In this document: positions 21,601 through 30,600 of the stretch, in pieces | Layout: each line of letters opens with the position of its first letter | Position numbering within the stretch: the stretch's first letter is position 1 | Source of the DNA: Muricea muricata | Lineage: Eukaryota; Cnidaria; Anthozoa; Malacalcyonacea; Plexauridae | Direction: 5' to 3' | Assembly: GCA_963855995.1 (NCBI GenBank) | Contig: OY979717.1 | Coordinates: 71,447,999-71,511,998, forward strand | DNA length: 64,000 bases | Notes under the pieces: generated by a model | Database searches by the model: none | Told to the model about the DNA's origin: nothing | The model's input: the letters and a program-made list of their open reading frames with translations, nothing else | Translations under genes and position numbers: made by a program

Positions 21601-24600
21601 AAAAAATATAAAACATTTTTCCGAGTTGATATACAGTTATATCAACTCTCGTTGAAATTAGAATAACTCGAAATTGTGTGAAAACACTCCACCCTTCGGG
21701 CGTCGTGTTTCCACACAATTTCTCGTTTTTCCAATTTCTACTCATGTTGATATAACTGTATGTCAACTCGGAAAAATGTTTTATGTTTTTTAAATATCAT
21801 TCGAATTGTCTCGTCAAGGCGTTTTTTTTTTTGTAAAAGAGTGGTGATTATGTCATATCGTTAGCTTACTAACCTTTTTGCCTAGATTTGCTTAGATTTT
21901 AGTTAATTTGAGTTGGCTTCTAAGTTATTTGCACTAAAAACCTCCAACATGCAAAAACGACTTACATGTAGGCTGAAAGGCTAATAAACTGACGATATGC
22001 ACTTTAATTGTTGAATCTTCTTCCAGCTCCTCGGTGATTGAATTTATAAGAGCTCCTTTTAGGCCTTGGAAAAAGCTTTTGAATCGGTTTTTTTTATTTT
22101 TTAGGAAAGCAATACAACTTTACCACAGCATGTAAATACAACATCAAGTGGTTCGAACACGACAATCCAAAAACGAAAAGTTCCGTTTGGTTTATCTTTG
22201 CGTGGTATTTATAAATGGATAACAGTGAAACAAAAAATTGATCTCACCACAGTTTTCAATGTGGTTAAAGAGAATATCGGTATTTTGCTGTCGGTAAGGA
22301 TGATTTTCTTTATTTACATAGTCAGGACCACTATTTTAATGAAGGACTACTTTTTATATGTCATTATTAATGGATCAATCTTACCACAAAGTATGTCTCG
22401 TGATTCGTGTGTAATACATTTTCACAGTTATTAGGTAAATATAAAAAGTTCCCAACAATTCCCCACATTACTGCTCACACTTAATCCGAGCCTTTTTTAT
22501 ATTTATTAGTAAAGTTTTTTGAGTTCTTTTTAAAGTTCTTACAATTTTTTAGGTGTTGGAATCTGTTTGGTTAATTTTTAAAAGCAACATGAACTTGGCT
22601 TTTAATATTATCACTGTATTGTTATCCTTGGTTTTCTCCAGCGGAACGTATCTACTAAATGCTGGTTTTTCCACTGTAAGTTAAAAAATTTCAGAACCGT
22701 CCTCGGAGATATATAAAACTAGATTCATATTCACCTGACACTGCATAAAACAACGAAAAATTCGTTGTCTCAAGCGGGATTCGAACTGGCGCCTCTTCGG
22801 GTTCTAGACTGCCGCTCTACCAATTTAGCCATCGAGCCAACTGGGATTGGTAGAGAAAATATTTTGTGTACTTAAATTGGATAAGACTCGCTACCAATCT
22901 CAGATGGATGATTTGTAGAGCGGCGATATAAAACCCGAAGATGCGAGTTCAATTCCCGCTGGAGACAACGAATTTTTCGTTGTTCTCTGCAGTTTGAGAT
23001 TAGTATGAATCTAAGTTAAAACAAATCTTGTAGTAATTTGTACCGACTAAAATCTTTAAACCAACAAGGGCAAATAATGTTAGCCAATCAGCGCGTTTGT
23101 TGACACTTTGCGTAATTGACCAATCAGAATGCATGAAATTCACCATGTGTAAACAAAAGGAGTGGGAAAATAGCACCTTGTTCTATGGCCTCCGTGCCAT
23201 TCGTTATTGCACTTCTCACTTCAAAACCAACAAATTGTGAGAAAGCGTGATTTTTTTTACAATTTCCTCGGGGGAATTTTTTAAATTCGATCTAGAACGC
23301 GAAAGATCAACGGTTTCAATAACAGAATTTCTATGCGCGCAAAATTAGCTGGCCTGAGGCATTAAATAACGGGTGTAGCAGATTATCTTTACGTAAATAG
23401 ACGTTTTTAAACACGCATAAAAAGGATGGATGTCATATGGGTTACTTTTTCTTCAGAAAAGTCAATTAATGTGAAAAATTTCACACGGAAACTTCGGAAA
23501 TTGACGTCATAATTCTAGGTCGTTTATAGCGGTAAAATTCGCGCCTTTTTCATACAAAAATGTTCTTTTTGTTGTTCTCAAATTTAACGCTGTTATTTTT
23601 ACGATGCGAAAAATCCAAAAATCCCGAAATTTACAAGGTCATGCAACATTCCTTTTCACGAAAAATGGTCAAAAGATGAAGGGAAAAAGATTGCCAATCT
23701 TCGAGCTGGTGGTTTGGTCGCGGTTACAACCACTTTTGAGCAGTATGTTAAGGAGGAAACGAGTAAACATTTATCCCATGGCATAAAAAACCTTTGCACA
23801 ACATGCCTACGTGAATGTTTTAACAAACGGAGATTTACCAAACTGCTTCCAAAAGGCCAGACTGATCAGCTAAAAGATAAAGTACAGAGACAGGTAAGGA
23901 GAGCAAGACAAACAGTGTATTTTGGCTTGAACAAAATAATTTACTTTTATAAATAACACCTGCTCTCCTTAAAGCCCCCCCCCCCCTTTAAGATGACGGA
24001 GGCTCTTGTGGGGGTTATCGAATAGATGGTACTATTTTGCTAATAGTGCATGGAAAAGTTAAATTAATACTAAAATACTCAAATGTTTATCTAAATGTTT
24101 TATATCTAAATGTTTTATATCTAAATGTATAAAGAAACTATGGACAAAAGAATCTAACAAAATGCAAGGTGTTGCTTCCCTACATAGAAAAGGGCCATTG
24201 AGGGGTGCACTCTCATACCGCAGAAGAGGGTCAGTACAGTACCTCAGAAGCCACCAAACCATTTTAAATGTTAGTGAAAGAGTAATGTAATCTAGTTAAT
24301 AATGCAATATAAAAGGGGATACATGCATGAGTTTGGTATTCATTGATTGTTATCTATATTGTGCTGTAGCTTGCGATATTGGAAGACTGTACTGGAGATA
24401 TAAGAACAAATGAAGCACCTGGTATCTTAGATCATGATCAGGATGAAAACCCTGTTAACGATACCTCAACAGTTAAACTTAGTTCATCTGTACCATCAGA
24501 TCACGTAGAACAGCTAACTGATACTCAATCAAGTAATGCCACCACAATAACCTTGAGTTCTCCAGAGCAAACAGTTGGTCAATGGGAAGAAGGTCAAGAC

Positions 24601-27600: not shown

Positions 27601-30600
27601 TATCCCAGGCTATTATGCTTGAAACCCAAATTTAACACTTCCAGAGACATCAACGCCTAAAGATACACCGACAATTTTAGTACCGGATGTTCAAACTCGC
27701 AATTTCCGCATCTCGCTTCGTGGCTTTGAATTCACTCATTATGCATGAGTCAAATCCAAGCGTGCCCATCCCCCCCGGGCCAACCCCCGGGCTTTTGACA
27801 AATTTTTAAAATACGTGGTTAATCCCCGGGGGCGGGGATAAAATACATGTGAAAATGGCCCGCAGTGGGGCAAAAAGTAATCGGCAAATTCCCCTCCCCG
27901 GGGACACCTGAAATCTGAAACCGTAAATCCAAATTGTTTTTTAAATAGGCGTAATAATTCTGTTCATTTTATGCTTCGTATAAATCATATATACGACTAT
28001 TGAATTAATATATATGATTTATACGAAGCATGAAATAAACAGAATTCATTAAAATATAATTTTGTGGAAGCACCACGTAAGTTTATTACATGATAATAAT
28101 AAACTTACGTGGTGTTTCCACAAAATTATATTTTAACTTGAAAATCACTATGCAAACATACAGGAAATTTATTACTAAACAGAATTTATATTACGCATAT
28201 TTCGAAAACAATTTGGATTTAGGGTTTGAATACTGTCTAGCGTGCTATTTTAATATTCAATACAATATTCAATACAGTCTAATTACCAGTACTACAAACA
28301 ATAAATAGGGACATTATTTGGAACCTTCTTTTATATCATAACATATTAACATATATTTTGATATTGTGTGAAACTGGTTTGATTATGTTGTTTTGTATTA
28401 TTATTTGTTCTAAAATAATAGAATCATCATTTCAAATGCCCCACCCCCGGGCAAAGGTTCGCACGCAAATGCCCCACCCCTGGGACGTACTAGACAAGCA
28501 AATGCCCCAGGGTGGCCCGGGGGGGGGGAATGGGCATGCTTGGATTTGACTCATGCATTACTTTGAATTTGTTTGGGAAACGGATTGTAAAAGTTGCTAT
28601 AGAGTTAATGGAATCGAGAATACGACAATTTAATTGCATATTCTTCAGGGTGCATATAAAATGTATAATTTATTTCACACCTTGTACAAGCGGTTAAAGC
28701 CTGCACTCAATATCTATGTAAACCATCGGATAAGCTCATTTATTATATGGTTATGGCCTGATAAGTGTTTCACCGTTAACTACAACACTCGTATCTCCCA
28801 TATTTTCACTAGTGAAGACATGAAAAAATATGTAACGCTTGAAAAACGCGTGTGTTTTCCCCTGGGATTTATATGTTCTCTGTTCGCTTGGTCCAACCTG
28901 AACGTGTTTTCACCACTCGTAAATAATATCTTCGCGCCATGCACCGTGTAATATCCTCTATGTATTGCTAGCTATGTTATAGATCATATCCGCAATATAC
29001 TCATTGAGTGATATACAGAATAGTGATTTTGTTTTGATAAAATTGGTTCTCTGCCAAAATTGTGATTGCATGTAAGGTTCCTCTCTACACTGTTTCATCT
29101 TTTAAACATACTTGTCAACTTCTGAATACATCCTGAATATTATTAGTAGAACTCAGCTAGTGTAACTAGCTTAACATTTCCTTATTATGTAAAAGTAATA
29201 CAATATATTTCTTACCACATTGCATGACAGAGCCTGTGAGCATGTCGTGACTCGTGAATATTCTGCAGTGCGACTCGAAGTCTCGAACGAAACCGACAGC
29301 ATCTGAAGCAAAAGCTACCGAACGCGAATAACTAAAACTTTAGGCGACGCGATTTGCCGCGTTTCCAGAACCCAATATTAATTGTTTGATCTTGAAACTT
29401 TCAAAGCAACAATTTTTATGCCTGGACGTGATGCGCCATCGCTCCTTGCAATACAACAGAGAACGGCTTAGACGGCCGCGCGTGTTTTCATTTACGCCAT
29501 GGGACTGGAAACTTGTTATGAGGAGGCTCCTCATAACAAACCTGTCGTACATGCGCAGAAGCGACTGTAACCTACCTTTAATATTTCACTATTCAAAGAG
29601 ATCTTGGTTCACTTAGGACATGCACATGCTTTGAAAAACACAACACACTCTACGTTATTAAAAAAGGCACATGTGATGAATAGAGGTTAGAGTTGAGACA
29701 ACCTTTAATTAGCACATGTAAAATATAAAACGTACTTTAAAACTTTTAGGAAATGCGATTTGCTCAACTGCAACAAACAGAGCTCCGTGTGGACGGTTTT
29801 TCATGGATGTGGGCATTCGTTCCACATCGCATGCATCCTCCCAAAAATCGGAGATTGCCCGATCTATAAAACAGCGTTGTTGTCAAAAGTTAAAGAGCTT
29901 GGTCAAACTGCAAACAAGTCTGTTTCAAATGTGTCCGTGCCTTCTGCTGCTGAGAAAAGCGACGAGAACGAGGAATTAAGTGACGATGATGACGACGAGT
30001 ACGACCAACTGGTCGACGATCAAAGCGAAAGGATAAACATTGACACTTTGTTACAAAGAATTCGCCATGGGCGATCGCTGGAGTCGAGCCGCGATGACGA
30101 TGATGGCCAGTCATAACGTGCCAAACCTGGTGACATATTTCCGGCATGAAGGCTGATTGGTATTTTTCTTGCGCGCATAAAAACACGGTTATTGAAACGT
30201 TGATCTTTCACGTTCTAGATCGAATTTAAAAAATTCCCCCGAGGAAATTGTAAAAAAAAATCACGCTCTCTCACAATTTGTTGGTTTTAAAGTGAGAGTG
30301 CAATAACGAATGGCACGAAGGCCATAGAAAAAGGTGCTATTTTCCCACTCCTTTTGTTTACATATTGTGAATTTCATGCATTCTGATTGGTCAAATACGC
30401 AAAATGTCAACAAACGCGCTGATTGGCTAACATTATTTGCCCTTGTTCTTTAAACCCGGATTGTTGAAAAACTAGCTTAAAAAAGCGGTAGTTTGTCTGT
30501 TTTAATTGCATGCACGCGAGCGCTTTATCAACTATGCTGTGGAAGTTGACGTTGATGAGTTACTGTCGTTCCCATTCTTGATCACTTTGAGGCTTAATAT

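Follow-up and report, generated by a model that had tools for sequence, protein, structure and literature searches.

The window analysed here is a 64,000-nucleotide stretch of the Muricea muricata genome (G000:C2:71447999-71511998), and its main resident is an element at 23063-30447 that is very probably a cut-and-paste DNA transposon, carrying the gene for its own transposase and having given rise to palindromic offspring elsewhere in the genome. Both termini begin with AACAAGGGC and belong to terminal inverted repeats (TIRs) of ∼280 bp, the 5′ TIR at 23063-23342 on the plus strand and the 3′ TIR at 30169-30447 on the minus strand, which are 94.3% identical after trimming. Self-comparison of the window aligns 23056-23213 with 30297-30454 in inverted orientation at 94%, with more inverted blocks further in. 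The element is flanked by two perfect copies of the 9-mer CTTTAAACC, the left target-site duplication at 23054-23062 and the right at 30448-30456. The inverted ends and a duplication of 9-10 bp had been recognized in a first-pass annotation of this DNA. The ends are genuine, but each lies one base outside the 23064 and 30446 given there and the repeats measure ∼280 rather than 260 bp; the tenth base of the proposed duplication belongs also to the inverted repeat.

The interior of the element is occupied by a three-exon gene on the plus strand. Exon 1 (23618-23893) encodes an N-terminal C-x4-H ... C-x2-C module that is a candidate zinc DNA-binding domain, exon 2 (24370-26370) encodes the predicted DDE-type transposase core, broken in this copy, and exon 3 (29750-30116, including the stop codon) encodes a C-terminal RING-H2-like module and an acidic tail. 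Intron 1 (23894-24369) is in phase 0 and intron 2 (26371-29749) is in phase 2, both are bounded by GT..AG, and the splice sites read CAG/GTAAGG, TAG/CTTGCG, CCAG/GTAAATG, and TTTTAG/GAAATG. The proposed gene structure was borne out by the intron positions and phases, which are common to four of five relatives compared. The window element is nevertheless a dead, damaged copy. The premature TAG at 25351-25353 is present as reported, whereas the "shift near 25866" marks real damage made up of three deletions, 11 bp after ∼25865, 19 bp after ∼25885, and 157 bp after ∼25907, amounting to 187 bp or ∼62 residues relative to both F30, the closest gene-bearing copy, and L044. As also reported, CPIY stands in place of CPIC, so that the last RING-like ligand is Tyr. 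In addition, the exon 1 frame is without the start Met that relatives have.

Intron 2 has been enlarged by nested elements. A TTAA-flanked inverted-repeat element of ∼3.15 kb at 26426-29577, with the TIR AGGTAGGTTACAG, is foreign to the parent transposon, makes up most of the intron, and had been overlooked in the first-pass annotation; once it is subtracted, the parent measures ∼4.2 kb. Nested in turn within it, at 27742-28557, is a second-level element with the TIR TGCATGAGTCAAATCC and TTA flanks, inside which smaller palindromes occur at 27956-28046 and 28049-28136. The same TTAA-type element, with long inverted arms, is also found in intron 2 of F30 (C1, about 13034400-13035760), ∼165 bp further along, and because the two sites differ, the insertions are independent.

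Gene-bearing relatives and their ends

When the genome (453 Mb in 74 contigs) was searched with the initial portion of exon 2, 215 first-look candidates were obtained, 122 of which were scored, at 27-100% identity. Apart from the window, the search supplied 29 loci with flanks limited to 1.5 kb; 28 of them contain an exon 1 homologue and 26 a TIR match; gene copies without these repeats were thus not the rule. The 3′ side was retrieved for eight gene-bearing copies (F30, F31, F32, F35, F44, F47, F50, and F51), and six of them have perfect 9-bp duplications: F30 (ATTGTAAGG), F35 (AGTATTGAC), F44 (TCCACCACG), F50 (AATATATAC), F51 (ACTTAAAAT), and F47 (ATCCTCAAT). In F31, eight of nine bases agree, and in F32 the right TIR is in direct orientation. 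When the window copy and 17 of the 18 palindromic copies described below are included, 24 perfect 9-bp duplications are at hand and all of them differ. Independent copies therefore combine TIRs with a target-site duplication of fixed length, as members of a cut-and-paste family do.

Open exons with matching splice sites were found in F44 (∼924 aa), F50 (∼955 aa), F51 (∼955 aa), and F35 (∼943 aa); in F47, the acceptor ahead of exon 2 fails to match. Relatives with open exons are ∼4.6-4.9 kb long and have inverted repeats of roughly 280-340 bp. The branch of the window element, by comparison, has two gene-bearing copies at high identity among the 122 scored candidates, the window copy and F30, and both are broken.

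Searches with the TIRs of two sister families tie the ends to the gene. The F44 TIR (40 scored of 184 candidates) gave 20 matches of at least 81%, 16 of which pair up while four are unpaired; the eight inverted pairs lie 4.0-4.6 kb apart and every one has an exon 2 match inside. With the F50 TIR (40 scored of 179 candidates), 14 long matches make seven pairs, six of which hold the gene and span 4.92-4.94 kb each; for the seventh (C1:69814695-69818997, 4.3 kb), no exon 2 match is among those listed. Seven further pairs match the F50 TIR at 82-86% over ∼114 bases, four with an exon 2 match inside, and the three short pairs with none (C2:44969645-44972352 and C2:49818758-49821466, 2.7 kb each, and C4:10992594-10994056, 1.5 kb) may be internally deleted. 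What the close pairs enclose is thus this gene (8/8 and 6/7) rather than an unrelated transposase. Separately, five matches to the TIR of the window element lie in the same orientation at G000:C3:26541663-26565441, three steps of ∼5435 bp and one of 7216 bp apart, and are likely a tandem array that includes this TIR.

The close TIR pairs around the gene, together with the transposase-like fold described below, support the earlier suggestion that the protein is the transposase. We consider it very improbable that the gene is instead a passenger or captured host gene in an element moved by the transposase of another family. Host proteins commonly carry RING modules and the first half of the gene is missing in all 18 fetched palindromes, both of which would suit a passenger, but such an origin sits poorly with the fold, with the presence of the same gene inside close TIR pairs in both sister families, and with the six listed copies having exon 2 as their sole frame longer than 200 aa.

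Protein fold, zinc modules, and known superfamilies

Modeling gave an RNase H-like fold in which acids are conserved and a helical insertion precedes the predicted last catalytic acid; a non-RNase-H fold, which would have counted against a transposase, was not obtained. Of the motifs singled out in the first-pass annotation as sources of acidic residues, IDDYHN holds D250/D251 and VENFHS holds E592, which lies within model helix 589-601, but the middle acid, D402 of GDWP, had been missed. As modeled, the protein has the RNase H-like fold and the three conserved acids of the DDE class. The Foldseek evidence is weak when taken alone. The best fold matches of the first model include the P element, Hermes, and ISCth4, with the P element and Hermes outscoring ISCth4; the second model places Hermes well above ISCth4 and does not have the P element among its matches. 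Structural alignments to P element, Hermes, and Transib-RAG1-type transposases are at 7-12% identity. Of two sequence searches against solved structures, one matched nothing but dynein light chains, none better than E 0.38, and the other was empty; no phage relatives of the protein were found, and a single-protein query of viral contigs gave three pattern matches, none of them confirmed.

Exon 1 has no Pfam match. The RING-like tail attributed to the protein stands as far as its C3H2C3 ligand order is concerned, but it falls below the Pfam cut-offs (best 16.1 bits versus 31). All eight RING-H2 ligands are present in this order in F44, F50, F51, and F35, and in F47 the first Cys is Trp. The label "DUF6589-type" had to be dropped, as PF20231 matches neither the window exons nor seven relatives, yet has 104 matches elsewhere in the genome; a by-eye comparison of the 104 found none that coincides with exon 2 relative loci. 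Alignment with hhalign to one DUF6589 protein gave Prob 0.1, a weak test with a single sequence, and none of the 5.39 million papers searched mentions DUF6589. With 104 matches, genuine DUF6589 frames are highly multicopy in this genome and are perhaps another mobile family.

The assignment to a family of DDE transposons that has no Pfam name is well supported. Duplications of 9 bp, conserved ends, and a conserved gene are direct observations; for catalysis we infer a triad of D250 or D251, D402, and E592 in the predicted RNase H-like core. The transposase would bind the AACAAGGG ends, possibly by way of the N-terminal zinc-type module, cut the element out, and place it at a new site opened by staggered cuts at a distance of 9 bp.

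In anatomy the element resembles Mutator-like elements (MULEs) and Rehavkus, with which it has in common a transposase gene, a zinc finger, the 9-bp duplication, and TIRs that run to hundreds of bp (PMC6446971). MULE duplications are given as 8-11 bp, and Rehavkus as having a duplication of 9 bp, TIRs of 26-400 bp, and a transposase that contains a zinc finger (PMC6446971). The 9 bp found here falls within the MULE range. A divergent Mutator-superfamily element, either a MULE or its sister Rehavkus, whose sequence has drifted beyond the reach of Pfam would fit on these grounds, and the IS256-type enzyme ISCth4, IS256 being akin to MULE, is among the best fold matches. We nevertheless regard this assignment as unlikely. 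No MULE model is among the Pfam results for the window exons and seven relatives, where the matches are to other families and all below cut-off, and in the first model the P element and Hermes, and in the second Hermes by a wide margin, rank above ISCth4. The termini here are AACAAGGG, and no Pfam family matches above cut-off. Rehavkus transposases contain a PHD finger, whereas the C-terminal module here has the RING-H2 order and exon 3 gave no PHD match at E ≤ 0.1; the minisatellite that precedes the 3′ TIR in Rehavkus was not found in the window copy, the one copy inspected for it.

The hAT (Hermes) and Transib-RAG1 transposases, and perhaps that of the P element, resemble the protein in its predicted RNase H-like core, in which a helical insertion lies ahead of the last acid. 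All three groups differ in the duplication, which is 8 bp for hAT and P, 5 bp for Transib, and 4 bp for Chapaev; the 9 bp here agrees with none of these, and Pfam scans of the window protein and its relatives gave no hAT, THAP, RAG, or P-element match. Chapaev and RAG1 likewise fuse a DDE enzyme to a RING finger, but the RING of RAG1 is N-terminal of the core and the one here is C-terminal, and the duplication is 9 bp rather than 4 bp. A 2015 report states that a RING finger occurs in no other known transposable element (PMC4411706); a Ghost-clade MULE with an adjacent RING open reading frame was noted later (PMC6446971). The element corresponds in full to no single named family, resembling MULE and Rehavkus in its duplication and TIRs, hAT, RAG1, and perhaps P in its predicted fold, and Chapaev and RAG1 in its RING. 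Judged by titles and abstract openings, no description of this transposon family or of its palindromes was found among the literature matches listed. A multicopy protein family of a eukaryotic genome that has no Pfam name can now be identified as likely transposases, and a further DDE lineage with a RING becomes available for asking where RAG1-like RING fusions arise.

Palindromic copies of the window branch

A genome search with the left TIR of the window element gave 213 first-look candidates, of which 40 were scored, including the TIR itself; query aside, the matches are 97-98% identical. Twenty stretches were retrieved from these matches, 18 contained both ends, and all 18 are inverted duplications. 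A perfect 9-bp duplication flanks 17 of them and is lacking in L010, in which an insert divides the arms. The remaining two, L019 and L021, have one end within the retrieved stretch, with the palindrome junction inside L019 and just past L021. The main arms are 1.06-2.27 kb long (mostly 1.6-1.9 kb of gene sequence) and 95.6-99.96% identical. Each arm includes the last part of exon 2 together with exon 3, and both ends of all 18 are the 3′ TIR. On the map of F30, the layout of most runs from the 3′ end inward to 2825, through a 20-bp filler, and from 2507 outward again to the 3′ end where it began. Of the 18, 17 retain the filler TGTCTTCTGTAWTGTCTTCT, with slight alterations nearby in L009, L012, and L016, and L022 has lost that part. 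Genome-wide, the junction with its filler occurs 26 times on seven contigs (reversed control pattern, 0), and because two of these lie within one element (L015), the number of palindromic elements is ∼25. A by-eye check placed no known palindrome junction within the F44- or F50-type TIR pairs, other kinds of palindrome not having been sought there, and F35, F44, F47, F50, F51, and F31 have no inverted arms beyond their ends.

That the palindromes are assembly or foldback-read artifacts is scarcely credible. Foldback artifacts of long reads are a recognized phenomenon (PMC12870357), but 17 of 18 palindromes have their own, different duplications, the arms within one element differ by up to ∼4%, and the exact junction with its filler recurs across contigs. 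The simplest reading is a single founding inverted duplication followed by transposition: in the window branch, the 3′ half of the gene would have been duplicated once in inverted orientation, giving a palindrome with two 3′ ends that then reached ∼25 places, with transposase probably supplied in trans.

Two intron variants occur among the palindromes, and both arms of one element share the variant in 18 of 18; however, the nearest neighbor of an arm is its own partner for only 12 of 34 arms (L010 excluded). The arms therefore homogenize each other only partially, and the latter count rules out clean concerted evolution of entire arms. In the palindromes, a 149-aa piece of exon 2 has no stops across 37 matched stretches, while stops interrupt exon 3 in 36 of 40, a contrast on which we base no claim of coding selection.

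All 18 palindromes, in which part of the transposase gene is duplicated in inverted orientation and bounded by the same kind of end on both sides, resemble in anatomy maize Mu killer, which is described as an inverted partial duplication of a transposase gene between two same-end TIRs and proposed as the source of a ∼4-kb hairpin RNA (PMC3440606). Mu killer is described as a single locus with ends from the mudrA (TIRA) side (PMC3440606). The palindromes here differ in that the 3′ half of the gene is duplicated and ∼25 copies have moved, with a 9-bp duplication in 17 of the 18 examined. The Tm1 Mutator/Foldback elements of root-knot nematodes share 9-bp duplications and foldback-like ends, but their ends are described as composites with short tandem repeats (PMC3169594), whereas the arms here contain transposase coding sequence.

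By analogy with Mu killer, the palindromes might in principle be a source of silencing RNA against their parent. We lean toward a plainer account, in which they are selfish non-autonomous copies that owe their success to two better-bound ends and have no silencing role; both ends being the 3′ TIR and the little divergence among copies suit this account. It leaves unexplained why inverted arms with mostly 1.6-1.9 kb of gene sequence have been kept, and why the gene copies are broken in the window branch and open in the sister families. A far-reaching alternative would join a new DDE superfamily, recognizable by its AACAAGGG ends, its 9-bp duplications, and a RING-H2 at the C terminus, to a self-spreading "mobile Mu killer" palindrome. 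Born of a single accidental inverted duplication and bounded by two ends from the 3′ side of the gene, this palindrome would multiply by means of the transposase of the family, make hairpin RNA against the transposase gene, and drive the gene copies of its own branch to decay, with sisters that lack the palindrome keeping theirs; we hold this combination to be quite improbable. As ∼25 young natural palindromes of single origin, these elements are a test system for hairpin silencing and for gene conversion between arms.

Other features of the window

Several further mobile-element-like frames lie outside the transposon. DIRS-type-looking frames at 8883-10575 (minus strand) were judged by eye to be recombinase-like and RNase H-like, the first of them having no Pfam match. 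A non-LTR reverse transcriptase-like frame at 13791-16745 (minus strand) has Pfam RVT_1 and endonuclease matches, and another at 40267-42130 was judged by eye. The tRNA-like look of 22720-23013 was dismissed, as ARAGORN with bacterial settings found no tRNA there. Two pogo/Tigger-like frames at 53257-55320 have an HTH_psq match above cut-off and a terminal PHD-like match below cut-off. Finally, two near-identical protein frames on opposite strands face each other at 19288-20767, forming an inverted coding duplication.

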